DNA of 64,000 nt from contig OY365806.1 in the NCBI GenBank assembly GCA_959347315.1, forward strand, positions 24,783,855 through 24,847,854. Reading direction: 5' to 3'. Shown in pieces: positions 230-58,373 of the stretch; the first letter of the stretch is position 1, and every line of letters begins with the position of its first letter. Origin of the DNA: Bimastos eiseni (lineage: Eukaryota > Annelida > Clitellata > Crassiclitellata > Lumbricidae). The notes under the pieces are model-generated. The model was given only the letters and a program-made list of their open reading frames with translations. It was not told the origin of the DNA and searched no databases. The position numbers and the translations under genes were made by a program.

Positions 230-2178
230 AAGACTCAGTGCACAAATTCAGAAGGGACCCAAAAATACTTGCGCCTAGGGCCCCGTTTTCTGTAAACGCG
301 CCTCTGTCAATAATCCAATCAGTAATTCAATTCAACAACGATCTGTCGCCTCGGAATTGAGATCTCAGATCTGTTAAGCCTAACTTACAGAACAATTATT
401 TTCTATTTTACCTATGACGAGCATTAGATTTTGGTTACAAATTTGACAGCTCTACGTAGCTGTAGGTTAAAATTAAGTATGCGAATTGCAATTTGCAAAT
501 AACATTTAGGTAATGTATACGCCTACGAAAAATTATTTGGAAATTTGCCACCTCTCGATGAGCAATTTGACAACTAAGTTTGTTACCCTGTGTGACATAA
601 TTAGGCTAAGCGAGTTTTACACTTATCCTAGCTGCTGTTGCCGTCTACGACAAAAATCGAAACTCGGAGCTAAAACCATAAAAAGAAATAGCCTATTAAG
701 TCAACCAAGTCATTAGCAGTCCATAGCCTATAGTCGACTGATTTCGACCTGCTGAGGCCTAATAATTAATAATACAGCTCAATGCTTAGGCTTTTTAGTT
801 TATTTAACGACACCTTCATGACAAGAATGATGCGCGTGCAATGCTTAGGCCTAACGTGGCGGCATATATACATGTATGACGGTTGCGGCGCCCGGGAACT
901 ACCATATTCATTATTCAATAAACGTAAGCCTAACCCTACTCTCGGAAGTCGTATATAATTGCACAGACGGACAACCCTAATCCAAAAATAGTTTGTAGGC
1001 CGCGTAGGCTTAAGCAGACATCCAATTGGCTGCCATGTTACGGCCGACGATTAATGACCCGTTCTTTAATCCTGTTAGGCCTATCTTGTGATTGGTAATA
1101 ATATTTCTGTTTCATCTTTGAAAGTAAGTAAAACTTTGTGCTACGTGTGTAGTCGATTTACAATAATTCAAATAAGTTTAAGACTCTTGGTATACAGTTT
1201 ACAAGACGGAGTTTTTAAGCTGGACAAATAAGTAAGTCATGTGAAGATGACAGCAGGTAGGTTTAGACCTATCAGACGCGACCTAAAGCAGGCCAGATTG
1301 ACAGATTCTCCCGCAGTGTTATTGTCGTAGCCTTAAGCAGGCAGCTCTTCTACGAGAAATGAGGCCTCGAGCAACCAGACCAGGATGTAAACGGTCTGAC
1401 CAATCAGGCAGCATTATTGGCAAGCAGGCCCCACTGCTTGCATTATGTTGATCTAGATGACGACAGAGGCCGACCATAATGACTTCACGCGATTTTGGTT
1501 CATTTCTGACCACCCCCTATCTCTCGTCACACGGCATCACAGACTCACAGAACTCGAAACCCATCAAAATGACGCCACAAAGCTCTAACCCCAAAATCAT
1601 ATTTAGGCTCTACAAGTTTCAAGGTATTAGCCTATTTCAAAGATATCAATGAAGTCACTTCATGCAGTAGGCTTATGTTAAAATCTATGAAATCTAGTGA
1701 TCAAAATAATGAGATTGTGTTCGGGTGAATTAAAAAAAACCAAGTTTATAAAATGTATTCGATGAATTGTTTTAATGAAATAAAAGTTTATATTAGACCA
1801 CCGAGTTTATTAAACATATCTCTTGATCTCCGTTCTCTCATTTCGAATCAAAATGTTTCTTCTTGGAATAAATAAGGGAGCGTGGATTTCTACAGTAGGT
1901 GGAATGTACGTACATTCCCTTCTTCGCCTATCCAATCTGTAATCTCTTCATTTCCTTCGTTCGCGATTACGACCATCAGATGATTCAGATCACACTGTCT
2001 ACATGTCGGTAACCTGATGAGTTTGGGGGAATAATTGATTGAAATCATGAAAGTAATATATATTCTGTGGTATATAATTTAAACACGGATGCCCTTGGTC
2101 TTTAGTCTGAATGTTAGTGACACGTGTTGAGCTGTCACACCAGTCTCTGAAGCGAAACTTATTTAAAACTGAATCGAC
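230..2178. other. Non-coding stretch upstream of the BTB gene
   Basis: I see no credible coding exon here. The stretch is AT-rich and holds two copies of TAGGCCTA (846 and 1076). It probably contains the promoter and a 5' untranslated exon of the BTB gene, because a splice acceptor lies directly before that gene's start codon, but I cannot place the exon. Confidence 0.5.
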
Positions 2179-2199
2179 TCTCTTGTTTTTACCAATCAG
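2179..2199 (+). promoter_or_regulatory. Splice acceptor immediately before the BTB start codon
   Basis: A pyrimidine-rich tract (CTCTCTTGTTTTTACC) ends in CAG directly against the ATG at 2200. This indicates that the single coding exon is preceded by one or more untranslated 5' exons and supports the choice of this start codon. Confidence 0.6.
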
Positions 2200-3129
2200 A
2201 TGGAACTTAAACTAGCTACAGACGAAAGATACAGGCAGTTTATTGAGTCTACGGACACTCAGTCATCATCGGGCTCTTCAGCCACAACCGCTGGTGAATT
2301 ATTCAGGTTCACCAACCCATCTCTTTCAAGTGGCGGCTTGTCCAGTCAACACCAACAGTGGACGACTGGTCATCTCATAAACGTAACGATGAGAGTGGGC
2401 GACCATCGGGTCCAGGCTCAAAGGGACGTCTTATCTGCAGTCAGCAGCTACTTTGAAACATTACTTAGCACCGATATGAATGAAGAGATTGAGCTTCGTG
2501 ATATCGATGGAAAAGCCGTTGAGATGCTCGTTCAGTACGCCCATACTGGATCGATTGACATTACGGGGGACAACGTCTCTGCGTTGATTAAAGCTGCCAA
2601 GTTCCTTTGCATTGATTCAGTGACGGAAGCCTGTCTCGTATACCTTGAGAATAATCTCACGATTGACAATTATCTGGATGCATTTGGTCTTTCCGTTTCC
2701 TGTGGCCAGGCGAGTCTTCGAGATTCCGTGGAGCGCTTCATTGTGGAGAACTTCAAGGATCTGACCTTTGAGAATCACATCATGAAGATGCCTTCAGATC
2801 TCCTGCTGCAGCTGCTGGATAGAGACGACGTTGTGGTGATGGGAGACGGATTCTACGGCGATCCATCGATGGAGGAAGAGAAGATTCTTGAACTTCTTCT
2901 TCGATACGTTGAGTCCGATCCAGAGGGACGTCGAAGGGATTTGCCGTTGTTGCTTTCACGTGGGGTGCGACTGATGCTCTTGACGCCTTCGACACTGAAG
3001 ACCTTGCAATCATCTAGACTGATCGCAAGTTCTCCCGAAAGTCTGAACTTAGTCAGTCAAGCGTTGTCTTTGGAGGCAACTGATGAGGAATTGAAGCAAT
3101 GGACAAAGCCCCGTATTCGCTTGGGTTAG
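2200..3129 (+). CDS. BTB-BACK domain protein (Kelch-like without Kelch repeats), single coding exon
   Basis: This is a 309-residue protein. A Ser/Thr-rich N-terminus (residues 1-55) precedes a BTB/POZ domain (about 56-155: HLINVTMRVGDHRVQAQRDV, then SSYFETLL, then a YAHTGSI strand) and a BACK helical domain (about 160-265, with the typical FIVENFKDL segment). It stops at WTKPRIRLG, exactly where Kelch-like proteins pass into their propeller. No Kelch exon and no clear splice donor follow, so the substrate-recognition half seems to be absent. Kelch-like BTB-BACK proteins usually dimerise and bind cullin-3 to ubiquitinate targets; by inference this one could dimerise and bind CUL3 but would need another partner for substrates, or could compete with full-length family members. 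An AATAAA lies about 105 bp after the stop. A retrocopy is possible, but the acceptor before the ATG argues against a simple processed gene. Confidence 0.85.
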   Translation: MELKLATDERYRQFIESTDTQSSSGSSATTAGELFRFTNPSLSSGGLSSQHQQWTTGHLINVTMRVGDHRVQAQRDVLSAVSSYFETLLSTDMNEEIELRDIDGKAVEMLVQYAHTGSIDITGDNVSALIKAAKFLCIDSVTEACLVYLENNLTIDNYLDAFGLSVSCGQASLRDSVERFIVENFKDLTFENHIMKMPSDLLLQLLDRDDVVVMGDGFYGDPSMEEEKILELLLRYVESDPEGRRRDLPLLLSRGVRLMLLTPSTLKTLQSSRLIASSPESLNLVSQALSLEATDEELKQWTKPRIRLG

Positions 3130-3234
3130 CAGTACACTTAAAAATCATCTAATTGCTTTTGTTTTTCCATATTTTTATTTAAATTAAGTTATCCTGTAGG
3201 CTAACACGATTTAACTCCATTGCAACTGAAAAGG

Positions 3235-3240
3235 AATAAA
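3235..3240 (+). terminator. Polyadenylation signal AATAAA of the BTB gene
   Basis: A canonical AATAAA hexamer followed by A-rich sequence lies about 105 bp downstream of the BTB stop codon. It fits a short 3' UTR and supports the protein ending without Kelch exons. Confidence 0.55.
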
Positions 3241-3578
3241 AAAACTTAGACCCCTAACGTGATTTTACAATATGATCTACGCAGCCATGAAGCTATCATA
3301 TTAAGTGAAATGTCATTTCTCTAAGTTTCTGTTTACTTGACTGTGTTTAGTGCGTCGTCAGTAGAATACTTATTTGCAAGCGTACATCATTTTGACTCGG
3401 ACTCGCTTTGATAGATTTTGGTAGTTTCGTTAATTCTTCTTACACCATCTCAATGATATTTACTGATATAAGTTCATATAACTATGCCTCTAATCGTCCT
3501 TGTAGTCTTTCTCTCAATTATTCATGACTTTCATTTGCTTTAAGTAAATAAGGCGTCGTTGCTTTTGTTAACACTCAG

Positions 3579-3749: not shown

Positions 3750-4376
3750 GTATGCCTATACACTATAATCCTTCATTGCTATTAGTACTTTAGATCGAGA
3801 AGTTTGATTGTCCTATAATTGCTAAGGTAAAACTTAGACCTAATGGATGTTGCTCGATCCGAGATTCTTCTGTCGCCATGGGCTACATCGTCCATCCTGC
3901 GTCAGTGACGAAATGCCCAAATCCTTTAGGTATACATAGGAGTTGACGAATTTTAACTGCCCGTAAATTACATTGAACCTCGTCAGCTGTCTGGTTTCAA
4001 AGCCGATTGAAACTTATCACTTAATCTATGGTGCGTGGTTCTTTCTTCGAACGTGTGCTGGTTACCAAAGAAGTAGATTCTTTCTGCGTGAGCTCTTACC
4101 TTTTCGTTTATGCTTTTGCTTTCTTACTCAGTTACCTGTCGCACAGCTCAACATATAATGACTCATTGAGTGACAGAGTAGAAGAGAAGCACAATAAGTA
4201 TAGCTTAAACCCAGTATCTTGGTCTTAGGCATAGACCTATGATAATTAAAATTTTATATTGCGCAGAGTTCAACACCGTTAACTTTAAAAATAATTGATC
4301 AAACATCGCGGACTTTAAAATTGATTCAGCGTTAACTTTGGTAACATTGAATACAATGTATACGTTTCGTTTCTAG

Positions 4377-4702
4377 GACTGAAGGTGTTCTATAACACAG
4401 GTGGCTTCATGCTCCATGGATCTGATGGATATGGATACGAAGACCACGAGTTTCATCTCGATCCAGATGAGAGAATCGTTTCCGTAAACGCAAGCTCCGG
4501 ATGGCTGATCGATCGGATAACGTTTGCTTCCAACCTGGGAAAGACCTATGGTCCTTACGGTGGCTACGGAGGCACTCAGCATTATATGGAGCGACCCTGC
4601 AAGAGAGCTTATCTCGCCTATTTTACTGGTAGTGTAGAACTCATTCAGGGTGAGACCGCACTTCGTCACATTCGTTTCATCTGGGGCTTCTATACCCGTT
4701 AA
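4377..4702 (+). CDS. Jacalin-type lectin domain, terminal coding exon
   Basis: The exon opens after TTTCTAG and continues in phase 1 from the 3749 donor. It encodes GLKVFYNTGGFMLHGSDGYG, then a strand EDHEFHLDPDERIVSVN, then SGWLIDRITFASNLGKTYGP and a Gly/Tyr-rich loop. It ends ...LRHIRFIWGFYTR and a TAA stop. This is a jacalin beta-prism domain resembling animal ZG16-like lectins: the DPDERIVSV strand and the ITF.SN.GKTYGP strand are family hallmarks. The C-terminal sugar-binding loop, normally GxxxD before the last strand, reads G-E-T-A-L-R here and lacks the Asp, so mannose-type binding may be altered. A secreted, glycan-binding, innate-immune or matrix role is inferred from the family. 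Confidence 0.75.
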
Positions 4703-11789: not shown

Positions 11790-13235
11790 CTCAATTCTGA
11801 TTCATATCCTCAAGCACGGTGGACTTGATTCACCTGATCCTGCCTATTTTCGACCAATTGCAAATGTAGCAAAAATCAGTGAAAAGATAGTCGCCTACCA
11901 GCTCACTGCTTATTTAGAGTTAAATAAGTTGCTTCCGAACCGCCAATCCGGCTTTCGGAAGGGTCATTCCGTCTCCTTTTCGACATTTATGGGGCTATCG
12001 ATAATTTGCAGCTTACTCTACTGGCTTTGTTTGACGTCAGTGCCGCTTTTGACACTGTTGATCATGACATCTTGCTCAAGTGGCTAGAGATTTCATTTGG
12101 ACTGTCTGGTAACTTTCTTAGCTGGTTGGCCTCATTTGCCAGGGAGCGCTCCATTTGTGAGGTTCATGGGTCTTCCAGGTCCACGTGGTCCTCTGCCTCT
12201 TATGACCTTCATCAGGGCTCTGTGCTGGGTCCCCATCTGCATGTCATCTACACTGCTGAGCTTGCTTCTGCCCTTAATGCCACTGCTGGGCTGGGTCACT
12301 TGTACGCTGATGACGTCCAAGCCTACTTACACTGCATGGCTTCTAAGGCCTCTACTGCTGTTCGGGCAATGAGCCAAACGCTGGCTGCCCTTGATATCTG
12401 GATGGCAACAAACCGCCTGCGACTCAACCCCTAAAAAACCCAATTTATCTGGCTGGGCACTCGCCAGCAGCTTATGAAACTTGATTTAACTGCAATTACT
12501 GCTGATTTCCCCCTCTTTGCATATTCCTCTATTGTCCGGCACCTTGGAGTCAAGTTGGATTAAGAGCTCACCTTTGCTTCTCATATTCACTGTCTTTGCC
12601 GTGATTCATACAACCAGTTGCGTCATCTTCGAACTGTTTCCCGCTCACCGACCTCCAGAATCCACAGCTACCCTTGTTCACGCCATCATTTACTGCCCGA
12701 CTGGATTACTGTTGCTCATTCCATGCAGGCCTTCCAGCTGGGCGTTTGCGGTGCCTGGAGCGGCTCCTGCGTTCTGCTGCACGTCTTGTTGGACGCATTC
12801 CTAAATTTTCTCATGTCTCTGGCTATATGCTGGATGTGCTCCACTGGTTCCCCCTTCAACAACGAATCTCGTACCGCATCATTTCTTTGGTATGGCCGTC
12901 CTTTCTAGGTCTCGCCCCTGCCTATCTTCGCGATATCTGTTAATCTACTTTGAGTGTACTAGGTCATCGCTCTCTCCGCTCTACTGAGCGAGACATGCTC
13001 ATTGTCCCATTTGCCCATACAACTACTAAACAGAATTGTGCCTTCTCAGTGGTTGGCCCCTCGCTCTGGAACACGCTCCCGTTGGCGTGGCGTTGCGGTT
13101 GTCGCCAAGGGTCCACTCAGACTCATTTTATACTCGCTTTGAAACTGTTCTTTTTGACCGTGCTGGAGTCGGGAGCACTCCTGAGTAGTAGCCTTGAAGG
13201 GGCGCTACATAAATCTCTGTAATGAATGACATAAT
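11790..13235 (+). pseudogene. Decayed CR1/L2-like non-LTR retrotransposon (reverse transcriptase remnant)
   Basis: Consecutive pieces of a reverse transcriptase appear in shifting frames. Around 11800-11960 is an RT N-terminal segment (DPAYFRPIANVAKISEKIVA, QSGFRKGHS). At 12006-12434 is the catalytic core, with motif A LFDVSAAFDTVDHDILL, motif B QGSVLGP and motif C LYADDVQAYLH. From 12640 to 12943 comes the C-terminal part (TARLDYCCSFHAGLP, RSAARLVGRIPKFSHVSGYM, VLHWFPLQQRI.YRI). At 12950-13080 is the tail (SLRSTERDMLIVPFA, FSVVGPSLWNTLPLAWR). Stops and frameshifts (e.g. TAA at 12432 and the 12562 TAA) make it non-functional. It ends in GGGGCGCTACATAAATCTCT and a short AATGA/AATAA repeat tail. 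The fragment at 54925-55475 is from the same family. Confidence 0.8.
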
Positions 13236-24954: not shown

Positions 24955-25087
24955 ATGGATCTGAAGTTGTTTGGAGTGTTTCTTGTGACGACGATTCTCT
25001 TAAGTCTGTCGTCTGGGCGGTCCGCACACTTTCCCTCATCGTCTTCTTCGCTTCATCGATTCCTGAAAGCAAAGAGACTCGTCGACG
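24955..25087 (+). CDS. Exon 1 of the prohormone-4-like gene: signal peptide and N-terminal peptide
   Basis: It encodes 44 codons plus one base, ending GTCGACG|GTACAG. The hydrophobic core FGVFLVTTILLSL is followed by a Ser-rich stretch and LHRFLKAKR. A possible 5'-UTR acceptor (TGTTCTTTTAG) lies at 24928-24938, 16 bp before the ATG. Confidence 0.75.
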
Positions 25088-28000
25088 GTACAGTTATCTG
25101 CTCATCAATTCATCCATGCATATGTATGCATACATACGTATGCATGATGATCATACATTAAATTAGACTCGTTTCATCTTGTGCATCTCACAGAGGAACT
25201 AATCAAGCATCTGGTTGTACAATCAACATACACAATAGGTTTGCATAAACAGTCCCACATGTGAATTTCAATTGCAATTGAATAGGGAGGTCAGTGACTC
25301 AGTGTAGTCGGGCCTTGCAACGTCGTAACCAAAGTACAGCTAATATCGATAAAACTGTCTAGACCTATAGTGTGAATAGACTTATAATTGATAGAATAGA
25401 TTATATATCCAACATGTATGCAATGTGTTTCAACGGGAAGTCTGTTTTCGGAACTCTCACCTATAGAAATTATCCTTGAAGCAGAAGGTATTGTCACTGT
25501 AGCTGCTGACTCTGCAATGTTTAGAGCCAGTGAGTGAATTTACCGGGGGGATTGGGAGGGTTCAACGCCCCAATTCATTTTTTAAACATCGCCAGTTAAT
25601 TCTCAGAAATTACCTTAGGACTTCGAGCAACCGCGCCCCAGCTCAGCTATCAGTGGCTTATTGCAAATGAACTTACTCGGGTCCCTAGTGCTTAACCGTC
25701 ATGTTACATTTTTAATAAAATATCAAGCTATAGATATGGTAGCCTGCAATAATGAAGTGGCTCTGTGAGGATGTCAGCATTATTCTAAGTATTTCTTTAA
25801 GCCTAATCGCTGTAATCAGTCAACAGGTCGAGTTGGTGGACAGATAGATTATACATGCTTAGGTCCAGAGGCAGTGTAGAAGAGGGCACGAAGCCTCGCC
25901 GGTTTCTTTGTTTGCGGTGACTTTGATAACTACTTGATTCACTGAAGTACGCTGTGTGCCAACAGAGCATAACAGCTGCATGGGTGATATTGAGATTAAG
26001 CCATTAGGCCCTACAATGATAGATATGGAATCTACTGCCACTGGCTTGTTGGAATGTATGCACAATATATCTGGTGTTACACGTATCCCCCAAATAGACC
26101 CGGCCATTGTTTCTAACTGCGTTCAGCACTGCATAAAATGAGTTTACTGAAGCTTGAATTTTCACTCAAAAGCGAATTCTCGAGAGTGAGGAATGTGATG
26201 GAACTCTGAAGCTGAAAAGGTTGATGAATCGAATAAAGGTCAGTATGAATGAGAAATCTCGTTCTGACAGAAAGAATAATAATAGCCTAGAAAACTGGCA
26301 GCCTGCAGCGAATCAGAAGATGAAAATCTCTGTTCAATATTGTCGCATGAGGACTGCAATACTGGTTCTACGTCTTTTGATCCCCCGTCAGTTGATCCCC
26401 GTCAATTAACCCCCTAGTCAATTGATCTCTAAGTCAATTGATCCTCTGCCTATTTAGCCCAGCCCAATTCATACAACATTCATGTTCCACCTGCAACCTT
26501 CTCAAATTATTAAAGGAACGATGTAAAATAGCACGAAATGTTAAAATGGTAAAAAAATACAAAGGCGTAATTGAGAGTCATGATATGATTAGTTTATCAG
26601 CATAAAGTTCCAAGCATAAGCGTCTATGCATGGGATAAATGAGCCATTGCTCTGAGATCTAAAAGAATCTCCGAACGGCCGTAAACGGTTATAGCGCGGT
26701 TGACACGAGCCTCAAGCGAGCGATATCGTTGCCGGATGCTCCGTACCGACAACTCTATGTAGGAATGTGATCTTCTGTCTCTGCATGTCGCGCTGAAGTC
26801 CTAAAAATGCTCTGGGGTATAAAAGAATCTCCAAACGGTTGTAACCAGTTACAGAGCGGAGTGACACGAAGCCTGGGCATTTATTTGTTATTTTGAAATC
26901 TGTATGATCAATCTTTTGTTGACTAACAGTCAGCTACAAGTCTGTGACGCGCAGCCTAGAGGTTTGAGGGCACCAATTGACTAGGGGACCAATTGACTGG
27001 GGATCAACTGACGGGGATCAAAAGACGCGATACCGTTAGCAAAACTGGCCTCAAATGTTAGCTACAAGCTTGAACATCTCCACTTTTTCTCAATTTTTAC
27101 TCCTGAATAATGTACATCATTTTATGTATTCTGATTTGCTGTTGGCTGTTAGTTGCCTGAATCAATCACCATGGACCAAAGATGATTTTAATAGAGCAAT
27201 TTTGGCGAAAGACATGTTGCAAAAGTACCCAAATAATTCCCTGTTAACGACAAACAAACAGTGTTAGAGTAGCCACAACCATAATGTTTATTTGTCCCAA
27301 ATACATTACAAGATAAATCAAAGAAAACATAAACATAGTCACAATCGTATTGGGAACGAGGGAATAAAATAAAAAAACCCTAAAGGGACAAATTGTCCCG
27401 CTAATCGAGTTACCCATTTAAGTTACAATATTTACAGACGGCTGGTTTAGGATAATGACACAAAATAGAACTTAACTAGTTAACAAAGTAGACAATAGGA
27501 GAGAGAAGAAAGAAAGAAGTACATTTAAATGTGAGAGCATGGCATGTTGATCGTTGCTGTTGCTGAGCGTTCTTGTTGTTGTTGGAGACAGGTAACCCGT
27601 GTCCAGATGCTGAGAAGCCGTTCCCTTGTAAGTCGACTCCCACCTGCATTCCAATGGGCTATCTTTGCGACGATAGTGTGGACTGCGAGGACGGCTACGA
27701 CGAAGATCCGGAGGTCTGCACCGCAGGTAAAAACAATGCATTCTCAAACACAATGAAAACAATTGACTGAATTATTTACGGTCTGCGTTAGCCATAATTC
27801 AATCGTGTATCCTAATCTAGTATGCAGCGACGTCGTCCGCGTGTTCTGCAGAGGAATGGGAAGGGGAAGGGAAAGCCACGACGGCGTCGTATACAGGCAT
27901 AGACGACATCAGCCACATGTGCAACTTAGATTTCTCTGATTCAGAAGCCATTCCTAATTCTGTTTTGCAGGAACAGTAATACTACCTGTGCACCTCTCCA

Positions 28001-31000
28001 TCAATATACGCCCCATGCGCTCAATGATTTCTTTGATTACATCTCGCATAACACGACGAACGCTGAAGGTTATTCGGCGACTACGTGTAATCAAGCGCCA
28101 TCTTAGAGTTGCTTTCAGAATAATTTACTTACGATTTGCGTTTAATAAAACCGAAGCAAATAGTTGGCAGTTTGGTTATATGCATGCAAAGATATGCATC
28201 AAACTCATTGATGAGTTCAGTTCGAAAATTATTTGTGTTTTGCTTCCGATAAGAAGGGCTTAATTGTATATTTAAAAAGCGTCTGTGTACGTTCGCTACA
28301 GAGTACATATGAGATTACGAGATTACTCGAATTCTTTCGCTGCTCTGCATAAAATGCTGGATACTTTTGTCATGTATGGGAATTTTCGTCGTAAATAAAC
28401 TGCCAAACTTTCTTCTTCCATCTGATATCCCCGACAGACAATTGTCGTGTAAAATGAATAATTGAATTTATGTAGCACTTAGCGAACATAAACTCTGACA
28501 AAGCAACCGAAGGTCGGAAGTTGAATCAAGGTTCATGCGAGGCAAAGCAATAGACTGCTTAAGGTTCTCGATCTTGGGCTCTCCGACGTACATGTAGGCT
28601 CTATTACCGGTTGAGTCGGGCTTGTATAAACGCCAACCGTAGACGCCAACCACTGAGTAATAATTTGCGACCCCAAATTAATTTCTATTTCTATTTCCAC
28701 TCTCTGTAGCGTATTTCAGTGCTCGCTCTATTCGCTCTCGTTCTCAAAATAATTTTAAATTTTGAAATTTTTCTCGTCAAGAGAAATTGGTAATTTTAAT
28801 TCTTATTCCTATTTCCGTTAATGGAAAGATCACTGGATGGGCTAATACTTCAGTTAGGCTAGACGTAGCCTACATAGACTATCTGTTAGTCCCAAACAAA
28901 GAGAGCAGGAGGCATCGATCGCCTTTAGCTCAATTAAGCCAGAGAATAAGAATACTTGAGAAGTTGAGAACAGTAGTTAAGCATTATAATGTCAGAAGAT
29001 GCAGAATAGCCATATGGCAAAAAAAGTGTTGTCGGAGTTCTTAGGGGCCGTTCACATATTATATAACGCATAAAATCCCAATTTTTGACCCATCCCCTAC
29101 CCCTAATAACTTTATATAACAGCAGCTGTGACCCCCACCCCTCTATTATATAACAGATATGCTACCTACTCCCCTACCCCACCCCAGTCTGCAAGTACGT
29201 TAAAAGACAATCAACATAATTCTACCCCACCCCAGTCTATAAGCACGTTAAAAGACGTACAATCGACATAATTGCATTGTACAATTTGAAACTTTTATAA
29301 CAATACAATGTTAGTTAGCACTTTAATAGTAGCGATAATTGCCTTCATCCATTTCAAAAACTGTAGCAAAAAATCATCATACACCCGATTAGCTATGTGA
29401 CAAAAGCTATCTTAAAATTGCGTACTCTCTCGTGCCAATGATGATTAGACCGGATGTATGGATCCATGCTCCTCTGCATCTTAATATTCGGACTTTTAAT
29501 GGCGCTAAATTCACTTGTATTAATTACGGTAACTAATTGGGCAGTCGACGATTGTCACCATGTATCTACATGTAAGCCTACTATAATACAGTATGATAAT
29601 ACATGGTAGTGACGTACATCCTATTTAAAAGCACTATTTTAGTTTCCCTCCTTTTTTGCACTAGAAATGAGCATTACAATATCACACAGAATGGATTGGT
29701 TTAATATTGCACTGTCAGATTTTTATTGATAGATTTTTGGCACAACATTACTCTGTCTATTTAATAGCGTATGATGTATACAGAGTGTATACTACAACTA
29801 CAATTGGGTATCTAAGCAAACATAAACTATTTACGCATACTATAGAAAACGAAATCAAACATTATGATAATACCTACCAAAATAATTGTTTCAAGTGAAT
29901 TAATTTTAATTCAAACCAAAATCAATACAAAGCACACAGAATTACATTTTAGAGCGTTGAAAGGTATGCACAGGAAATTGTTAAAATTGTAAATAGGAAA
30001 TTGTTAAAAGTAGATTTCTAAATAATAAGTTAGAATGCCAGGTGGCAGCTAATGGTGCTAGTTTTGGTTCACAACGTATAGTGAACTTCGATTAAACAAT
30101 GAAGGTCCGTGGCACATGGAATTTCCAATTGGCAGGCAAACAGGCAAAATAGCATAAGCTGAAAAAAGTTTGCTATATAACAAAACCTTTAACCTACCCC
30201 CCACCCTACACAATATAACGCTAACAAAACCGGAACCCGCCCACCTACCCCTTGAGAGTTATATAATATGTGAACGGCCCCTTAGCAAATTGAGACAAAA
30301 TCTAAACTAGAAGTTGAAGATTGTTTGAGAATTTTTGCTGAGAATCTAGGCTATAGCTGTTCGTGTATGGTAAACGTCGTTCGGAGACACAAGATTTTTG
30401 AAGGCATTAAAAATTTACGATTGCAATATCAAAAGACCGGATGAAGAAGAATAAATGAGAATTGTATTCGCTCTGTTTTAAAAATCTTTTCTATCACTGA
30501 ACGAATAATAAAGTACATGTAGCAAGTTTTAAAAATCTTTAAAAATCTTTTCTATCACTGAACGAATAATAAAGTACATGTAGCAAGAAACAGATAGATA
30601 TCGGTAAACATGAAGTAAATTAACATAAAAGCCGACGAGACTGAAAGAAAAGCTTTACCATGAGTGCGTTGCAGGCAGAGGTTCATTAGACGTCGCCAAG
30701 ACCTGGTGTATTTGCATACATAACTTTTGCAGGTGCGACCCTGTGAATGATCAATTGTAAGCGAGGTTAAGTCTTGCCATATGTTTTTGGGTTCTTTCAA
30801 ATGCGAATCTACATCTATGACATCTTGTTCTTGGGCTGTATACATATATAGCGTAGGCCCTATAGTCACATATTTCATATAATAATATTATTGTGTAAAA
30901 TTAACAAGAATACAAACGTACGCCAGAGGTACCTGTCTAATGATATTTCCAGCTCACAGACCACCAGTCGAGGACATTCTGAATTTTTTGGAATCTACAA

Positions 31001-31716
31001 AGAGCTGGATCATGGATAGACTTTTCAGCGGTCAAGACATTTCGCAAGTCGCCCATGGCTTGGTCGGTAAGAACGCTTATATACGTCGGATTTACGTAAA
31101 TGTATAAGAAGCTAAGAAGACGTATGTTTAAACTTTTATCGTATCTTCAGATCCGTTCAAATTGTGCGATTACATGATGTCTCCCTTCTTCTATTAAACT
31201 TTTCTAATTTTTCTTCATCTTTCTCTTCTTTTTCTCCTCCTCCTCCTTCTTCTTCCCTCCTCCTACTACTTCTTCTTCACCATCATCATCTTCGTATTCC
31301 TCGTATCCTCCTCTTCCTTTTCTTCCTCCTCCTCTTCCTCCTCCTGTAGTCTCTTCATTTTACTATTCCACTACTAATACGACCAGTGCGCTTCTATGAG
31401 GTATTTTGAAAGCGCAATATAAATTGTTTTGGTACGTGTAGGCCTACTGTACGCAATGCACTTGCGATTAGAATGCATGCAAGTGAATGTAAGCGACGCT
31501 TGTTCTGGTGTGGTTATTGTAGTGAGTGCAACAGTCGAGGATTACCGCAAGCGACTCGGCCTCACCGAGGATGACATGGGCAACCTTCGAAGTGCTCTGA
31601 AGGCAGTCAGTGACGGCGATGAAGGAGCTATGACCGGCCTTGGCATGCCCCCATCCGCCTGGAACGAAATCTCCTTCATGTTCGGAAAACTCATTAAGAG
31701 CGGGTTCGCCGCTTGA
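24955..31716 (+). CDS. Neuropeptide precursor of the prohormone-4 / ITG-like type (LDLa-containing), four exons, 191 aa
   Basis: Coding exons are 24955-25087, 27592-27726, 30953-31066 and 31523-31716. All three introns are phase 1 with GT..AG borders, and the joined frame is 576 nt. The protein has a signal peptide (about 1-22, MDLKLFGVFLVTTILLSLSS). A short basic-ended segment follows (to KAKR at 38-41, a dibasic convertase site). Next is an LDL-receptor class A module (45-89) with six cysteines and an acidic DCEDGYDEDP calcium motif. The C-terminal region (90-191) includes YRKRLGLTEDDMGNLRSAL and GMPPSAWNE. From memory of the family, insect prohormone-4/ITG-like precursors have this order: signal, N-terminal peptide ending in KR, LDLa, then a conserved domain with a GMPPSAWNE-like block. 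It is probably secreted from neurons or neuroendocrine cells. The mature peptide would lie between the signal cleavage site and KAKR. The hAT MITE supplies an in-frame upstream ATG (24889), but the signal peptide and GACGATGG context favour 24955. Confidence 0.75.
26371..27027. mobile_element. Inverted-repeat element with GATCCCC-rich ends, in intron 1
   Basis: The left end (CGTCTTTTGATCCCCCGTCA...) and the reverse complement of the right end (CGTCTTTTGATCCCCGTCAG...) match over about 55 bp. The ends themselves contain short direct repeats of GTCAATTGATCCCC. Inside, a ~65-bp segment with AAAAGAATCTCC(G/A)AACGG is present twice (26650-26712 and 26809-26874). There is no coding capacity. I could not find a clear target-site duplication, so the superfamily is unassigned. 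Confidence 0.65.
27262..27440 (-). mobile_element. 3'-UTR fragment of a non-LTR retrotransposon, in intron 1
   Basis: Read on the minus strand, AAATGGGTAACTC...GTTAGC-like sequence followed by GTCCCTTTAGGGTTT matches the 3' UTR of the element at 38213-40394 (AATGGGTGACCCTGTTAGCA, then GTCCCTTTAGGGTTTG). It ends near an AATAAAC and ATGGTTGTGG tail. Only the tail is present, as expected for strong 5' truncation. Confidence 0.55.
27592..27726 (+). CDS. Exon 2 of the prohormone-4-like gene: LDL-receptor class A domain
   Basis: Bounded by GGAGACAG| and GCAG|GTAAAA, phase 1 at both ends, so the LDLa module sits in one symmetrical exon. Six cysteines (48, 57, 63, 70, 76, 87 of the joined protein) have class A spacing. 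The usual DGSDE is DGYDE here. The first five cysteines and the acidic residues should allow calcium binding. Confidence 0.85.
29041..30284. mobile_element. Harbinger/ISL2EU-like non-autonomous DNA transposon, 1.24 kb, in intron 2
   Basis: The element proper spans 29044-30281. Its left end GGGGCCGTTCACATATTATA is exactly repeated, inverted, at the right end (TATAATATGTGAACGGCCCC), with about 24 bp identical. It is flanked by TTA on both sides (29041-29043 and 30282-30284), the 3-bp duplication expected for PIF/Harbinger. Inside the left end a ~50-bp unit starting TACCCCACCCCAGTCT is tandemly duplicated (29173-29272). CCTACCCC motifs also occur near the right end. The longest internal open frame is 63 codons with no transposase motif, so it must be mobilised in trans. 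Confidence 0.88.
30477..30587 (+). repeat. Tandem duplication, 61-bp period, in intron 2
   Basis: A segment containing CTATCACTGAACGAATAATA and AAGTACATGTAGCAAG occurs twice, essentially identical, indicating a recent local duplication. Confidence 0.9.
30953..31066 (+). CDS. Exon 3 of the prohormone-4-like gene
   Basis: It follows TGATATTTCCAG and ends TTGGTCG|GTAAGA, phase 1 at both ends. It encodes RPPVEDILNFLESTKSWIMD and RLFSGQDISQVAHGLV, an amphipathic helical segment corresponding in position to the helical region after LDLa in insect prohormone-4. The alternative acceptor at 30959 would shift the frame and is rejected. Confidence 0.75.
31195..31352 (+). repeat. Long polypyrimidine tract in intron 3
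   Basis: CTT/CTC/TCC-rich sequence runs for about 155 bp and ends CCTCCTGTAG. It is a potential strong acceptor 170 bp upstream of the one I use. Using it would place stop codons in frame before exon 4, so it looks like a decoy or the start of a non-coding isoform. Confidence 0.6.
31523..31716 (+). CDS. Exon 4 of the prohormone-4-like gene: conserved C-terminal domain and stop
   Basis: The acceptor GGTTATTGTAG continues phase 1. It encodes VSATVEDYRKRLGLTEDDMG, then LRSALKAVSDGDEGAM, then GLGMPPSAWNEISFMFGKLI and KSGFAA with a TGA stop. The GMPPSAWNE block is the strongest family marker in the gene. Confidence 0.8.
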
Positions 31717-38211: not shown

Positions 38212-38321
38212 AGTTTAAAACGTTACGAAAAAAATGTGAAAGAAATTTCTATGTTTCGGAATTCACAAAGTATAACAACGACCTTAAACAAACCTGGCAA
38301 ACCATTAAAACTATATTAAAA

Positions 38322-39581
38322 GTGAAATCTTGGCACTTGCCAATTAAATCCATAATCTCTAGTAGTGTTGAATTGACGGATGCTAAATTGATTGCTGAAA
38401 AATTCAATAACTATTTTACGAGCATAGCTCTAGAACTTGTCGACAAGATACCATCCTCTCTTGCATCCTTTTCTGACTACCTTGATCCACCTCAACTTAG
38501 TTCTTTTGCTGTCCATCCTGTTACTCCTGACGAGTTACTCACGCTCGCCCGGTCTTTGAAAAATACACACTCTTCTGGACATGACGATATCAATCCTAGT
38601 TTAGTTACTCCTTTACTGAACCTGATCGCTAATCCATTGACTGATATTATAAATTGCTCTCTAACTACTGGCACTGTTCCTTCTCTCTTGAAAATAGCCA
38701 AAGTCATACCTATACATAAACAAGGCCCAAGTGAACTCATTACTAATTATAGGCCCTTTTCAATCTTGCCTTTCTTTTCTAAGTTATTGGAAAAAGTCAT
38801 GTATTCACGCCTTTCTGACTTTATTAGTAAAAACAACTTTCTTTGTCCACTTCAGCACGGTTTCCAACCTGGCCATTCCACGATGATGTCCCTACTAAAC
38901 CTACAGGAAAGCATATCTGCTGCCATTGACCGTAATGAATACTCTATCGGCGTTTTTATTGACATTTCTAAAGCTTTCGATACTGTAAACCATGATTTAT
39001 TAGTATCAAAATTGGCTAACTTGGGTGTTCGAGGGGTGGCCTTAGCTCGGTTCCAAAGCTACCAAGCTGATAGACACCAATATGTATACTGTAACGGTTC
39101 TATATCTAGCACTAAATTAATTAGATATGGTGTACCTCAAGGTTCCATCCTAGGTCCCCTTCTTTTTTTGATCTTTATCAACGACTTGCCTAATGCCTCG
39201 AGTCTCCTTCATTTTTTATTATTTGCAGACGATACCAACATATTTGCATCACATGCATCTTATGATAAGCTAATTGCATTAATGAACCAAGAGCTTACTC
39301 ATGTCAGCGAATGGTTTACTGTAAATAAACTGTCACTCGACGTCACTAAGACCAATTATATCCTCTTTACCTCTCATCGTAAGCATCTTCCTGCCAACGT
39401 AGGTGTTCTGAGTATAAATAATATCCCCATTCCCAAAGTCATCTCAGTAAAATTCCTGGGGGTCTATGTAGATCAATATCTTACTTGGAGCAGCCACATT
39501 GAAATGTTAGCATCAAAAGTAGCCAAAAATATAGGAATAATATCTAGAATTGCCTACCTCTTACCAACTCATACGCCTTAG
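38322..39581 (+). pseudogene. Reverse transcriptase main open frame of the retrotransposon
   Basis: 419 codons cover the RT fingers/palm (NYRPFSILPFFSKLLEKVMY, QHGFQPGHSTMMSLLNLQES), the catalytic FADD and the following thumb region (SVKFLGVYVDQYLTWSSHIE). The true frame extends upstream of the first ATG to the microsatellite boundary. The C-terminus is lost to the frameshift. Confidence 0.85.
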
Positions 39582-53300: not shown

Positions 53301-54614
53301 GGGAGCAGGAGCGGCAGGAGTAGCAGGAGTAGCAGGAGTAGCAGGAGTAGCAGGAGTAGCAAGAGTAGCAGGAGTAGCAGAAGTAGCAGGAGGAGTAGCA
53401 GGAGGAAGTGAAGGAGCAGGAGGAGATTAAGAAGCAGGAGGAGGAGGAGGAGAAGTAGTTTGTGGAGTAGGAGATTGAGACAACGGGACGATTAATGGAG
53501 GATTAGAAGAAGAAGGCGGATTGGAAGGAATAGGGGGAGAAGGAGGAGCAGAAGCAGAAGGAGTAGGAGAAGGCGACAACGGAGTGGTCGATGGATGATT
53601 AGGAGTAGGAAGTGGAGTAGCAGGATCAGGACAAGAACGAGGAGCAGTAGGAATAATAGGAGCAGAAACAGCAAAAGGAGCAGAGTTGAAGGAGTAGGAG
53701 GAGTAATAGGAGCAGGAGGAGCAGGAGAAGGAGTCATCGGGATGATCGGTGGAGGAGGAGGAGGAGGAGGAGAAGGAGAAGGAGAAGGAGGAGGAGGAGG
53801 GGCAGTGGGAGCGAAATAAGCAAGAGGAGCAGGATGGCATGAGGAGGAAACCACGAGGAAATCGGTGGAAGAGGCTGAAGAGCAGGAGAGGAGATTAAGG
53901 AGGAAGAGGAGGATGAGGATGAGCCGTAGGATCAAAGGAAGGAGGGACAGAAAATAGGAAAAATTGAAAGAGTGGAATAGATGAAGCAGAGGAAAGTGAA
54001 TAACGACGAAGAACATAGAATGATTTGATAGTATGGCAGATGTGAGAAGTAGGTGAGAAAGAGTGTCGTGTGAAACTGTTTGGTTGTGGTAAACCCACCT
54101 GTGGTTGATATGACTTGAGGTAGATATTCGGACCAGAAGGCGCAGTAATTGCTTCTCGGTCCCCTGCCGACGGCGTTCGCCTGTAGCGCCCGATCGAGGT
54201 AGCGAGCGTTCAGTTGGAGGTAGTGCTTGCCACTGGGAGTGAAGATCGGCCACTGGATATTCGTCGACTGTCGCCCGCTCTTTCGTCGACTGTTCGGGTC
54301 TCTAGAGAAACGCGTGAGAAAGACATTAATCAGCTGATTTTCGCACATCTTGTTATCGCCAATGATACGCTGTTCTGTTGCTGTGTAGAGAACGAGAGAA
54401 AAGAGAGCAGAGCTAGAGAACACCCCGATGGTTTCGTCTTCGTTGTAAAGTTACCGCTTACTCTGCGCTACATGCAAGATTCGTAGATGTCAGAAACGAA
54501 GAACTGATGTTAAGCTAAGCGAAGACATCGCAAACATTGGACTAAGCACGAGAAACGCAATGGATTGACAAATGACCGCAAACACTGGAATTGCCAGCCT
54601 CTTCCCTCTTCCAA

Positions 54615-54651
<37 letters not shown>

Positions 54652-57600
54652 AAACATAGCATGTGGAGAAGGAGCAGAAGGAGTAGGAGGTGCAGATGGC
54701 CTTGGTCTCTGTTCCATAGACCAAGGCCACTGCAAACTCCCTTCGTCTTAAGACCAGTAGGTGTTTCCTGCATCCCATGGTTTCTATATCCAGAGTTTTC
54801 TGTTTGTCCTGCATTGGATTCCTGTCGTCTTGGTTCATACTTGATTACGAAGGTCATTTCCTGGTCAATGGTCACTCTTGGTCACTCACCGAAGCAGTAA
54901 ATGAGAAGCTGAAGTTACATAGGCCTATATAGGCCTATATTCCTTGGAACCGGATTGGGAAGTTGGAACGAGTTTAGCGTTCAGCCGCGCGCTTGATAGG
55001 GGGCACCCCGAAGACTGGCCACGTTTCTCCCTATGACTTATTCTGGATGTCCTGCACTGATGAATTATTATCTTTCCCTCAGCGCATTGCAGGCAGGGTC
55101 TCTGCCCTTGTTTGGCGCTGTCTTTGCGGCGCTGCACCATTAAATCTCAAAGAGTTGTGTTGGCCCATTGAGGCCACTAGTGACCGACCCCAACTCCGTT
55201 CTGCTGCCCATGGGGACCTGGTTGTCCCTTTCGCTCGTTCCACAGCGATACACCATCGCTGCAACTTCTCAGAGGTGGGCCAGAGTTTGAAAAATTGGGA
55301 TGGGCTCCCAAGGGCTTCGCCTCCTGCCTAGAAATTCCTCGCCTGTTATATATTCTACTCGTCTTTGAAATCCGTTATTTTTCAGTCGTAGTCAGACCGG
55401 TAGCGTCTCTGAGTAAGTATCTTGAAGGGACGCTATATTAACTTCATATTGATTGATTGATTGATTGATTGAGCCAACGTCTAACTTTTGGCACTGCTGA
55501 TGATTGTAACCCAGATAAAACGATTCTTTCGCGATTGAGCCAGAGGCAGTTAAATGCCTGCACAACACGATTTACATTTGTCAGTCAGTTTCTCAGACAA
55601 GAACATTGTGTAGGCAACGAAAATTTGCCTACATATCGCCAAACAGTTGCTGACGAGCAACAACTCTCGAGGCGCAAAGAACACTCACTAAATAAAGGTG
55701 TTTCTTATTCTCCGGGGTTTCCGTGCTGAGAGGGCCTCTACTCTGTGAGAAGCGCTATATAAGTATGCAGATACGATACGATATATATATATATACGCAG
55801 ATTATATATATATATCTATAATTATACATATAAGCACACACGATACTGTCAACAGAGAACTATTCTCATGCAATGAGATGACCTTAAAATAGCGGCTGCT
55901 AGCGTTCCGCTGTCAAAACAGAATAATGCGCTGTCTATATGATATTACGCTTCTTTGTCTGTTAGAAGTTTTCTGTTCGACTGCTGAACGAAATGTGATC
56001 GCTGTCTGAGACAGACTCAGACTGCAGACGAAGATAGTTGCGCAGATGTGTAAGCGAGTGACAGGTATGATTTCCTCAGTCAGCAAATAGTATTATGAAC
56101 AACGAAAGCCATTGTTATCTATCACATGTTAAGGTGTGTTGGAGACAATCATGTGACAAGCTAAAAACTTATGTTATACTATGTTTGCACACGAGTTTAC
56201 TAATATACAAAAATACGTAAGTAAATAGTATTTAGAGAATGCAGGATTGATGCAGAGGGCAGAAATAATGTACCAAATAAACTGATAAAAAAATATACAT
56301 ATTAGGCTTCACACATGTAGAAGGTGCGAATGTGACATCCACGAGTGCGGTGATGTAGATAATGTCATAATGATGACATCAACGACACATTTGATCGCAT
56401 TCCTGATTAACTACATGTAGGTAAGCCCTAATATAACAGCTGAATCCGTAATTACCCAAGATATCCCTATTTTGCTGATTAACATAGCGCAATGTGAATC
56501 GATGGTATCTGTATATTTGGAGGAGGAGGAGGAGGAGCAAAAGGAGGAGGAGCAGCAGAAGGAGCAGGAAGAGGAGCAGGACTAGAAGGAGGAGGATGGT
56601 GCGATCGCCTTTGTTCTAGTTTCTGACTAACCCAGTTTGAGCGAAGTTCGTCCAGTAGTTCATGATGGTTCTTGAGAGGTCTCTTTCTTCAGCAGCAAAG
56701 TTCTTTCCTGGCTTCAGAGGTTGACCGAATGTGAAGAGGACCTCATCGCCGTGTAGCACTCCCATCCAGTCAGGCCATGGGTTCGAACTGTACCTCTGAG
56801 TGAAGTAGTACATGTAAACCGTTTGTCCAGCCGACGCGTAGCTGAGCGCGAATTCATTCACTGGACAGATGAACTGGAAGTCTCCCACTGCCTCGTCGAC
56901 CCCGTGAAGGTTGGCGTCGGGGTCATCTGGGTTCAGCCAGTCCGTGTACTGGAACTTGATGGCGTCCATTGCGAACGACGAGTTCAGTTTCTGCGGATAC
57001 TGCGGAAACGTGTAGAAGAGCTTCTCGATGTTTACGATGAACTCTGCGCGGGTGATGTCCTTGACGGTGAGTGTCAGGCGAGGGTAGAGTTCGTAGATGA
57101 TGAACCACGAGCCCTCGTTGAGGTTGCTGCCCATCAGGATGGGACACTTCTTGAATCGCCCCAGGCGCAGCAGCACGGACGGAGACTCTTTCAGGAAGTT
57201 ATTATCTACGACCGGAAGGAAGGGAAACTGGAGGATACCACGTGACACCCACTGATCCTCCACCAACCGTTGAGGAGACTCCTTCCGCAGACAGTCCACC
57301 AGCTGACCGACGTCGTCCGTGTTGTTGCAGTGGACATAGTCGATGGCCAATTCGACGGAGCGGCGCTTGCCCTCGGCCTTCGTCACGGTCGCCCAGGGCA
57401 TGTTAGCGGTGCCGCTTTGCATGATGGCGCGATGGAAGAAGGCCCAGCTGAGCGGAGACAACAGGTGCAGACTGACGCTGACGGACCCGGCGCTCTCTCC
57501 GAACAGGGTCACGTTGTCCGGGTCTCCGCCGAACGATCGGATGTTTCGCTTCACCCACTCGAGGCCGAGACGCTGGTCGAAGAGACCGACGTTGCAGGGG

Positions 57601-58292
57601 GCCGTCGGGTGATCGAGACACAGGAAGCCGAGCGCCCCCACGCGGTACCCGATCGACACGACGATGACGTCGTGGAGAGAAGCGAGGATGCGCCCGTCGT
57701 AGACTTCCAGGGTCGTCGTTCCGCTGTAGAATCCTCCGCCAAATATCCAGATCATCACTGCACGCTTCCTGTCTCCCATTCCGCCGCCACCAGGCTCCGT
57801 TTCCGCTGGTCCTCCTCCTCTCGGAACCCAAACGTTCAGGTAGAGACAATCCTCGTCAACAGGTGTGTTTGGATTCCACATGTTCGATCCATCGAAGTCT
57901 GAGCCGAACAGTGTATCGTTCAACTGGAAACAGGAGTTGGGCATCTGCGTGGCATCGAGGACGTCTTCCCTCGACCAGGGCTTCACGGGCACCGGAAGCT
58001 GGAATCGTAGGCGGTCGACGGGTGGCTGTGCGTAGGGGATGCCCAGGAACGCATCGCCTGCCAATCCCAGATGGGAGAGGGTATACGACAGACCGCGCAC
58101 ACGTCCGCTGTCGATCACCACTTCCGGTTGACCAGAAGGATGTAAAGAAGGAGGTGGAAGAGGAGGGGGAGGACTGTCGGGTTGAACTGGTCCGACTTCT
58201 GCGAAGAAACAGAAGGCAAAGAGAAAGAGGAGGAAGAGAAGAGGAGGAGGAGCTGCTCGGTCCATCAACCCACGCAGAAGACGATCCAACAT
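50220..58292 (-). CDS. Acetylcholinesterase-like enzyme with T-peptide tail, three coding exons, 669 aa
   Basis: Joined exons 58292-56632, 54301-54099 and 50365-50220 (minus) give one frame. Junction phases are 2 and 1. The hydrophobic LLFLLFLFAFCFF (about 18-30) is a signal peptide. The full catalytic triad is present: Ser267 in GESAGS, Glu393 in NLNEGSWF, His514 in GVLHGDE. The oxyanion glycines are GGGF. The choline-site Trp is W139 (MWNPN), and D126 matches the peripheral-site Asp. Three intrachain disulfides are conserved (C121-C149, C322-C334, C476-C607). In the acyl pocket one Phe is Leu354 and the other is kept (F356), unlike vertebrate AChE, so butyryl-type substrates may fit better. 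Four N-glycosylation sequons are visible (NDT, NVT, NNT, NSS). The tail (622-669) is a tryptophan amphiphilic domain ending in C661, which in vertebrates tetramerises around PRAD peptides of ColQ or PRiMA. An in-frame TGA 13 codons upstream fixes the start. It should hydrolyse choline esters at synapses or in extracellular fluid. Confidence 0.88.
50366..50730. other. Cholinesterase intron sequence
   Basis: Nothing recognisable beyond intron DNA. Confidence 0.4.
50731..50811 (+). repeat. Dispersed repeat family 'AYSRAL', copy D (weak)
   Basis: It shares CATCAGCTCATTCACGA and GCTGCATCAAGTCA with copies A-C. The upstream half is strongly diverged. Confidence 0.4.
51340..51425 (+). repeat. GTCTCGGTCTTG-type repeat, array 3
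   Basis: CTGTCTCGGTCTCGG and CATCTTGGTCTTG units, ending near ATAACACTG. Same family as 44462 and 45113. Confidence 0.6.
51426..52220. other. Cholinesterase intron sequence with a GC-rich patch
   Basis: 51840-51990 is unusually GC-rich (CGCCGCTGCCGCCGCCGCAG). On present exon assignments it lies within the last intron. No open frame of interest was found. Confidence 0.35.
52224..52622 (+). repeat. GAGA/GACA microsatellite block, ~400 bp
   Basis: Alternating GAGA and GACA tracts. Ser/Leu/Cys-rich minus frames of up to 196 codons over it are compositional artefacts. Confidence 0.95.
53018..53023 (-). terminator. Polyadenylation signal AATAAA for the alternative cholinesterase end
   Basis: AATAAA on the minus strand lies 29 bp after the stop of the candidate exon 53052-53209. 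Confidence 0.5.
53052..53209 (-). CDS. Candidate alternative 3'-terminal exon of the cholinesterase gene
   Basis: Following an acceptor (TTACCTGACGCAG), the phase-1 frame from exon 2 stays open for 51 further codons. It reads RKTCKRWIHGEGPQLHTSDP, AAAAAVSVYARNVDPHATPT, then a His/Pro-rich end and TAA. A polyadenylation signal follows at once. It has one cysteine four residues in, but no hydrophobic GPI-anchor signal and no T-peptide aromatics, so it would give a soluble or dimer-type tail. Phase match, acceptor and AATAAA support it; the low-complexity content and lack of homology argue for caution. Confidence 0.45.
53285..53930 (+). repeat. GGA/GCAGGAGTA low-complexity block in the cholinesterase intron
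   Basis: (AGGAGTAGC)n at 53307-53400 is followed by imperfect GGA/GAA/GCA triplets to about 53930. Long Ser/Pro/Leu-rich minus frames here are compositional. Confidence 0.9.
54099..54301 (-). CDS. Cholinesterase exon 2 (C-terminal end of the catalytic domain)
   Basis: The acceptor CGTTTCTCTAG at 54302 joins in phase 2 to exon 1, recreating the family junction FAQTG-DPN. It encodes QWPIFTPSGKHYLQLN and YCAFWSEYLPQV, matching the conserved WP.YT...YL.L and C.FW...LP blocks; C607 pairs with C476. It ends ACCACAG|GTGGGT in phase 1. Confidence 0.9.
54620..54650 (+). repeat. (AT)n microsatellite
   Basis: About 30 bp of alternating AT. Confidence 0.9.
54697..54730. repeat. Inverted repeat / potential hairpin
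   Basis: TGGCCTTGGTCT, a 9-base loop, then AGACCAAGGCCA: a perfect 12-bp stem within the first cholinesterase intron. It carries the GGTCTTGG-like hexamer of the 44-45 kb minisatellites. Confidence 0.75.
54925..55475 (+). pseudogene. CR1/L2-like retrotransposon 3' fragment, inside the cholinesterase intron
   Basis: The plus frame carries PQRIAGRVSALVWRCLCGAA and HGDLVVPFARSTAIHHRCNF with SEVGQSLKNWDGLPRASPP. These are homologues of the QQRI.YRI..LVW, LIVPFAHT and FSVVGPSLWNTLP segments of the 11.8-13.2 kb element. It ends TTGAAGGGACGCTATATTAA and a (TTGA)n tail, as the other copy ends GAAGGGGCGCTACATAAA. It is antisense to the host gene. Confidence 0.75.
55476..56631. other. Cholinesterase intron 1, remaining part
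   Basis: A TA tract lies at 55778-55820, and a GGA/GCA purine tract at 56519-56597 is immediately next to the exon 1 donor. No further coding exon is seen. Confidence 0.5.
56632..58292 (-). CDS. Cholinesterase exon 1 (signal peptide and most of the catalytic domain)
   Basis: 553 codons plus two bases. The donor is ACTGG|GTTAGT; reading through it gives only LVRN and a stop, so the apparent 558-codon ORF is an intron run-on. A 5'-UTR acceptor (GCGCCTTCTTCTTTACAG) lies at 58356-58373, so this exon probably starts at 58355. The region 37-56 is proline-rich. GC content is much higher than in surrounding DNA, typical of a constrained coding exon. Confidence 0.92.
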
Positions 58293-58373
58293 GGCAGCGG
58301 CAATCTGGAGCCAGGTGTTGTCGCTCGGTCACGAATCAAGAGGCAGTCTATCCAGCTGTAAAGAAGAAGGCGC

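Follow-up and report, generated by a model that had tools for sequence, protein, structure and literature searches.

The window analysed here, 64,000 nucleotides (nt) of the lumbricid annelid Bimastos eiseni (contig OY365806.1, positions 24,783,855 to 24,847,854 of the forward strand), includes a four-exon gene for a small protein of the prohormone-4 family. The exons, 24955-25087, 27592-27726, 30953-31066 and 31523-31716 (133, 135, 114 and 194 nt, forward strand), join to a frame of 191 residues plus a stop; GT and AG bound all introns, and every intron is in phase 1. A sequence-only reading of the window had proposed this gene, and its start, end, exon number, intron phases and length were all borne out. 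The features of the gene are as follows.

24955..25087, +, coding part of exon 1: signal peptide, N-terminal segment and KR site, with a phase-1 end at G/GTACAG
24955..25017, +, probable signal peptide, residues ~1-21 (hydropathy; cleavage point placed by eye)
25018..25071, +, candidate released peptide RSAHFPSSSSSLHRFLKA, residues ~22-39, placed between the predicted signal peptide and KR
25072..25077, +, dibasic KR site, residues 40-41
25088..27591, +, intron 1, phase 1, GT-AG
27592..27726, +, exon 2: six-cysteine LDLa module; length equal in both paralogues
27727..30952, +, intron 2, phase 1
30953..31066, +, exon 3, with the AHRPPVED linker and the initial helices of the C-terminal domain; acceptor ttccag/CTCACAG
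31067..31522, +, intron 3, phase 1, GT-AG
31523..31716, +, exon 4: remaining helical C-terminal domain (GMPPSAWNE, KLIKSGF) and TGA stop; length equal in both paralogues

The hydrophobic maximum of exon 1 is LFGVFLVTTILLSLS. More than one AG is found near the start of exon 3, and the choice of ttccag/CTCACAG yields AHRPPVEDILNFLES, as in the homologue P0001. The signal peptide (judged by hydropathy), the KAKR motif, the single LDLa module and the GMPPSAWNE motif described earlier are all present in the joined protein, which in a Pfam search matched LDLa only (PF00057, E 1.2e-06, residues 52-87).

The joined protein was searched against about 5.8 billion proteins, the check suggested for it, and E ≤ 0.01 was reached by 29 of the 185 candidates scored (best E 1.9e-92). 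The best homologue shares 81% identity across 93% of the query. A profile made from the alignment of those homologues was passed by 81 proteins at E ≤ 1e-5. Named relatives are titled Prohormone-4 (Capitella, Ridgeia and Owenia; Oratosquilla) or IDLSRF-like (Argiope), and the homology to these members supports the prohormone-4 assignment made from the sequence. The elements of prohormone-4 were found in their order: signal peptide (by hydropathy), dibasic site, single six-cysteine LDLa and a cysteine-free C-terminal part. Identity to the Capitella prohormone-4 is 62% over 148 columns and to that of Oratosquilla 38% over 150 columns. Excerpts of PMC8398477 describe the same layout for the oyster prohormone-4: after the signal peptide comes a short segment closed by a dibasic site, then a single LDLa and a long cysteine-free C-terminal part. 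Unlike known prohormone-4, the window protein has an N-terminal segment that does not resemble the insect peptide IDLSRFYGHFNT, and the Bimastos genome has at least three gene copies. The additional label "ITG-like" was a misnomer. According to the same excerpts, ITG-like is prohormone-3, a separate cysteine-rich precursor that carries the peptide ITGQGNRIF C-terminally, whereas the joined protein has no peptide related to ITGQGNRIF and its cysteines are the six of LDLa only. The gene is an ordinary annelid prohormone-4 (IDLSRF-like precursor), since annelid members are already catalogued. In excerpts of De Oliveira and others (PMC6425005), prohormone-4 is one of the families whose origin is placed in the stem protostome, and the annelid gene leaves this unchanged.

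A search of the whole genome (G000, 660 Mb in 118 contigs) found 12 matching places. Three copies of the gene, all on contig C1 (71.8 Mb), account for ten of these as exons: four of the window gene, three of copy B (13.235-13.240 Mb, +) and three of copy C (24.210-24.220 Mb, -). Weak matches were found on C2 (38%) and C10 (32%). The two paralogues are complete, their first exons having been located in addition to these matches.

G000:C1 13235070-13240032, +, copy B, complete gene, 191 aa
G000:C1 24209775-24233115, -, copy C, complete gene, 186 aa

Both are four-exon genes with exon 2-4 lengths (135/114/194 nt) and phases equal to those of the window gene; a TGA shown by one copy B match is located in the intron preceding exon 2. 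Over the 146 codons of exons 2-4, the differences between the window gene and copy B number 20 at the first, 16 at the second and 86 at the third codon position; for copy C the counts are 33, 22 and 83. The N-terminal segments of B and C differ (SPSSLFSGLHRLKK; SIVQPHYGNYQAHKR), and their LDLa modules are 92% and 90% identical to that of the window. Homologues with identities of up to 81% support the joins, as do the two complete paralogues, which share the contig and the lengths of exons 2-4 with the window gene; the four-exon gene is thus confirmed as real and complete, with joins that rest on homology. A broken remnant or a chance assembly of exons deserves next to no credence, given the continuous homologous reading frames (P0001 and others), the matching paralogues and the excess of changes at third codon positions. 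In a gene tree of 34 of the 81 family proteins and the three Bimastos copies, with an arthropod outgroup, an 18-row clade (99/98) next to the named annelids unites these copies with 15 relatives, and copy B clusters with P0002, P0003 and P0019 (100/98). Copy C shares 93% identity with P0004, and copy B groups with those three proteins, so the copies probably predate the species. Another family tree, in which the bootstrap had not settled, included 56 of the 81 proteins and the window protein after 25 fragments or isoforms were dropped.

The regions of the protein are conserved to different degrees. Identities are given for three regions in turn: the N-terminal part together with the signal peptide, the LDLa module, and the C-terminal part. 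Those of the window protein are 19/75/57% with Capitella, 56/98/85% with P0001, 48/92/76% with copy B and 36/90/62% with copy C. The values are 32/90/60% for copies B and C, 38/92/81% for copy B and P0002, and 81/100/95% for copy C and P0004. In each pair compared, identity is lowest in the N-terminal part, in agreement with the divergent N-terminal segment and strongly kept LDLa and C-terminal domains noted earlier. A dibasic pair is present in 47 of the 49 N-terminal segments retained in the family set (58 rows were given, and nine were dropped because the N-terminus was short or absent or because the match to the cysteine pattern came too early). An IDLSRF-like core was found in 11 of the 49, not above chance (shuffle mean 12.1, standard deviation 2.9). 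The segment of the window protein contains LHRF; an initial reading of this as an IDLSRF relic gained no support from the shuffle test.

NRAP-1 of C. elegans (PDB 8v14) is an auxiliary protein of the N-methyl-D-aspartate (NMDA) receptor. It is reportedly released at synapses, where it is said to bind the receptor and change its gating. The family profile matched NRAP-1 with E 5.4e-23 over profile positions 42-192, that is, LDLa plus the C-terminal domain, and a single arthropod prohormone-4 matched it with E 4.7e-43; the window protein by itself does so over residues 33-106 only. When a model of P0001 (the 81% homologue, taken in place of the window protein) was compared with the PDB using Foldseek, 8v14 was the sole match at E ≤ 0.001 and had the same fold. 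The other rows listed from the structure libraries cover LDLa or pieces of the helical domain, and an absent row excludes nothing. The KR pair, LDLa, a CTAAxRPPVE linker and the helical C-terminal domain are shared with NRAP-1, and the proteins can be aligned end to end, but identity is only 28-32% in structural alignments and a gap takes the place of the GMPPS of the window protein. By profile and alignment, the LDLa and C-terminal domain is homologous to NRAP-1. The NMDA-receptor role belongs to NRAP-1, to which the annelid proteins are linked by homology and predicted fold. Among the main texts covered by a literature search, the names prohormone-4 and NRAP-1 were not joined in any paper.

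The genome of the host includes 66 matches to PF10613, 62 of them above the cut-off. Nine of 30 glutamate-receptor loci were read, and two exons were searched against structures. One, at C17:17398042, is GluN1-like (best E 7e-19; GluN1 in all of the best 60 of 327 rows), and the other, at C3:17565343, is GluN2-like (best E 2.5e-13; named GluN2 in 59 of the best 60 of 143 rows). The host therefore has receptors of the types on which an NRAP-1-like role would depend.

The host had been taken for a probable deuterostome. A deuterostome (echinoderm) orthologue would shift the origin of the family to before the protostome-deuterostome split. This possibility was first followed through the octamer TAGGCCTA, which has 26 sites in the window against 0.6 expected, an excess taken to be an echinoderm habit and speaking for this possibility, but seen here in an annelid. 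In a literature search on the octamer, none of the 20 titles listed, out of 182 papers, concerned animal genome motifs. The identity of the host was decided by a second gene of the window and by the mitochondrial genome.

53932-58328, -, acetylcholinesterase-like gene, main open reading frame (ORF) 56619-58328; closest among the matches listed: P0082, 85%

A probable extra C-terminal exon of this gene, at ~53.9-54.4 kb, reads GRGPRSNYCAFWSEYLPQ. The esterase search scored the 7992 candidates sharing most words; among the best 120 of 1112 matches, the top named rows are Paralvinella (62%), Helobdella (54%), Lingula (52%), Haliotis (50%) and Lineus (52%), and the named rows are all protostome, with no deuterostome among them. 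A quick tree (a method without bootstrap, with the arthropod outgroup one row short of clean) was built from 92 rows, the window esterase and 91 of the 120 listed; in it the gene is nested within a 63-row clade (Shimodaira-Hasegawa-like approximate likelihood ratio test, SH-aLRT, 100) with Paralvinella, Helobdella and the orthonectid Intoshia, and the mollusc, nemertean, brachiopod and arthropod rows are outside it. Contig C118 (15,339 bases) is the mitochondrial genome, and the protein genes read, with names assigned by eye, all lie on the same strand and run nad5, nad4L, nad4, (unannotated ribosomal RNA region), nad1, nad3, nad2, cox1, cox2, cox3, nad6, cob, atp6. This is the ordinary annelid order, from which that of echinoderm mitochondria differs. 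The stretch between atp6 and nad5 (L037 ~2730-3510) contains a long tandem repeat, visible only through its translation. The esterase placement and the mitochondrial gene order make the host an annelid, so the deuterostome host was rejected and an orthologue of that kind is extremely improbable. The main texts of echinoderm (PMC4772807, PMC9793003, PMC5627052, PMC6586643, PMC9971248) and xenacoelomorph (PMC6188537) neuropeptide papers, which name neither LDL modules nor IDLSRF and use "prohormone", in some cases, in general senses only, also speak against it. Thus, the family and the conserved LDLa and C-terminal part stand from the interpretation first offered, and the ITG-like name and the deuterostome host do not.

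Several other features were observed. Intron 1 of the prohormone-4 gene has an inverted-repeat element at ~26371-27027, with arms of ~30 nt made of short repeated units. Intron 2 has an element at 29040-30285 whose terminal inverted repeats (29040-29067 and 30258-30285) are 28 nt long and 96% complementary; it resembles a non-autonomous DNA transposon. The Pfam scan of the window covered part of two forward frames and five chosen ORFs. A BTB-BACK exon of a Kelch-type protein was found at 2173-3129 (+), an ORF with a Jacalin-like lectin domain at 4325-4702 (+), and reverse transcriptase ORFs (Pfam RVT_1), probably from retroelements of the long interspersed nuclear element (LINE) type, at 38214-39581 and 11928-12434. 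Rfam and transfer RNA scans across the window gave no matches.

On balance, we favour the view that the gene encodes a secreted, probably neuronal prohormone-4 whose conserved LDLa-helical unit acts on NMDA receptors, the N-terminal peptide being a by-product or minor signal. The small protein would be made and secreted, probably by neurons, with cleavage after KR on its way through the secretory path. The peptide on the N-terminal side, which evolves fast, would be a by-product or have a minor signalling role, and the LDLa-helical part, the conserved working unit, would be released at synapses and, by likeness to NRAP-1, may bind NMDA receptors and alter their gating. The suggestion, made from the sequence, that the "spacer" has a function of its own is supported by the regional identities and the homology to NRAP-1 and is not proven by them.

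A more traditional explanation, which we consider unlikely but worth keeping in mind, is that of a classical neuropeptide precursor where the peptide preceding KR is the signal and LDLa and the helical domain serve sorting or folding only. The available excerpts of the literature treat the family in this way, and report IDLSRFYGHFNT/INT measured in ant brain (PMC10194420) and MSVDFSRL in oyster ganglia (PMC8398477); therefore, release occurs in these relatives. The nearly universal dibasic pair and the similarity of the N-terminal parts of copy C and P0004 point in the same direction. Against this explanation, the supposed signal is the least conserved part (19-56% in the window pairs, while LDLa is at 75-98%), the same disparity is seen in the B-P0002, B-C and C-P0004 pairs, the IDLSRF-like core is at chance level, and a relative is described, by the title of the 8v14 entry and that of a reference, as receptor-acting. 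Less likely still, the conserved part could be active elsewhere than on NMDA receptors; its LDLa might, for instance, be a calcium-dependent ligand for some other partner on the neuronal surface, the role of NRAP-1 being a nematode specialisation. LDLa modules bind many partners, PDB sequence matches included modules of LDLR, VLDLR and megalin, and partners may differ among the three annelid copies. Nevertheless, those matches span essentially LDLa, the one to NRAP-1 spans both domains, and NMDA receptor exons are present in the host.

A broader proposal, to which we give somewhat less than even credence, is that all protostome prohormone-4/IDLSRF proteins, long classed as neuropeptide precursors, are secreted auxiliaries of the NMDA receptor of the NRAP-1 type, and that the peptides measured are mostly by-products. 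The three annelid copies, with distinct N-terminal peptides and near-identical LDLa modules, could tune different synapses. The homology unites in one family the neuropeptide or hormone precursors of honey bee, ant, oyster and cone snail and a nematode partner of the NMDA receptor, and the puzzle of the conserved prohormone-4 "spacer" becomes directly testable on annelid, insect and mollusc receptors.

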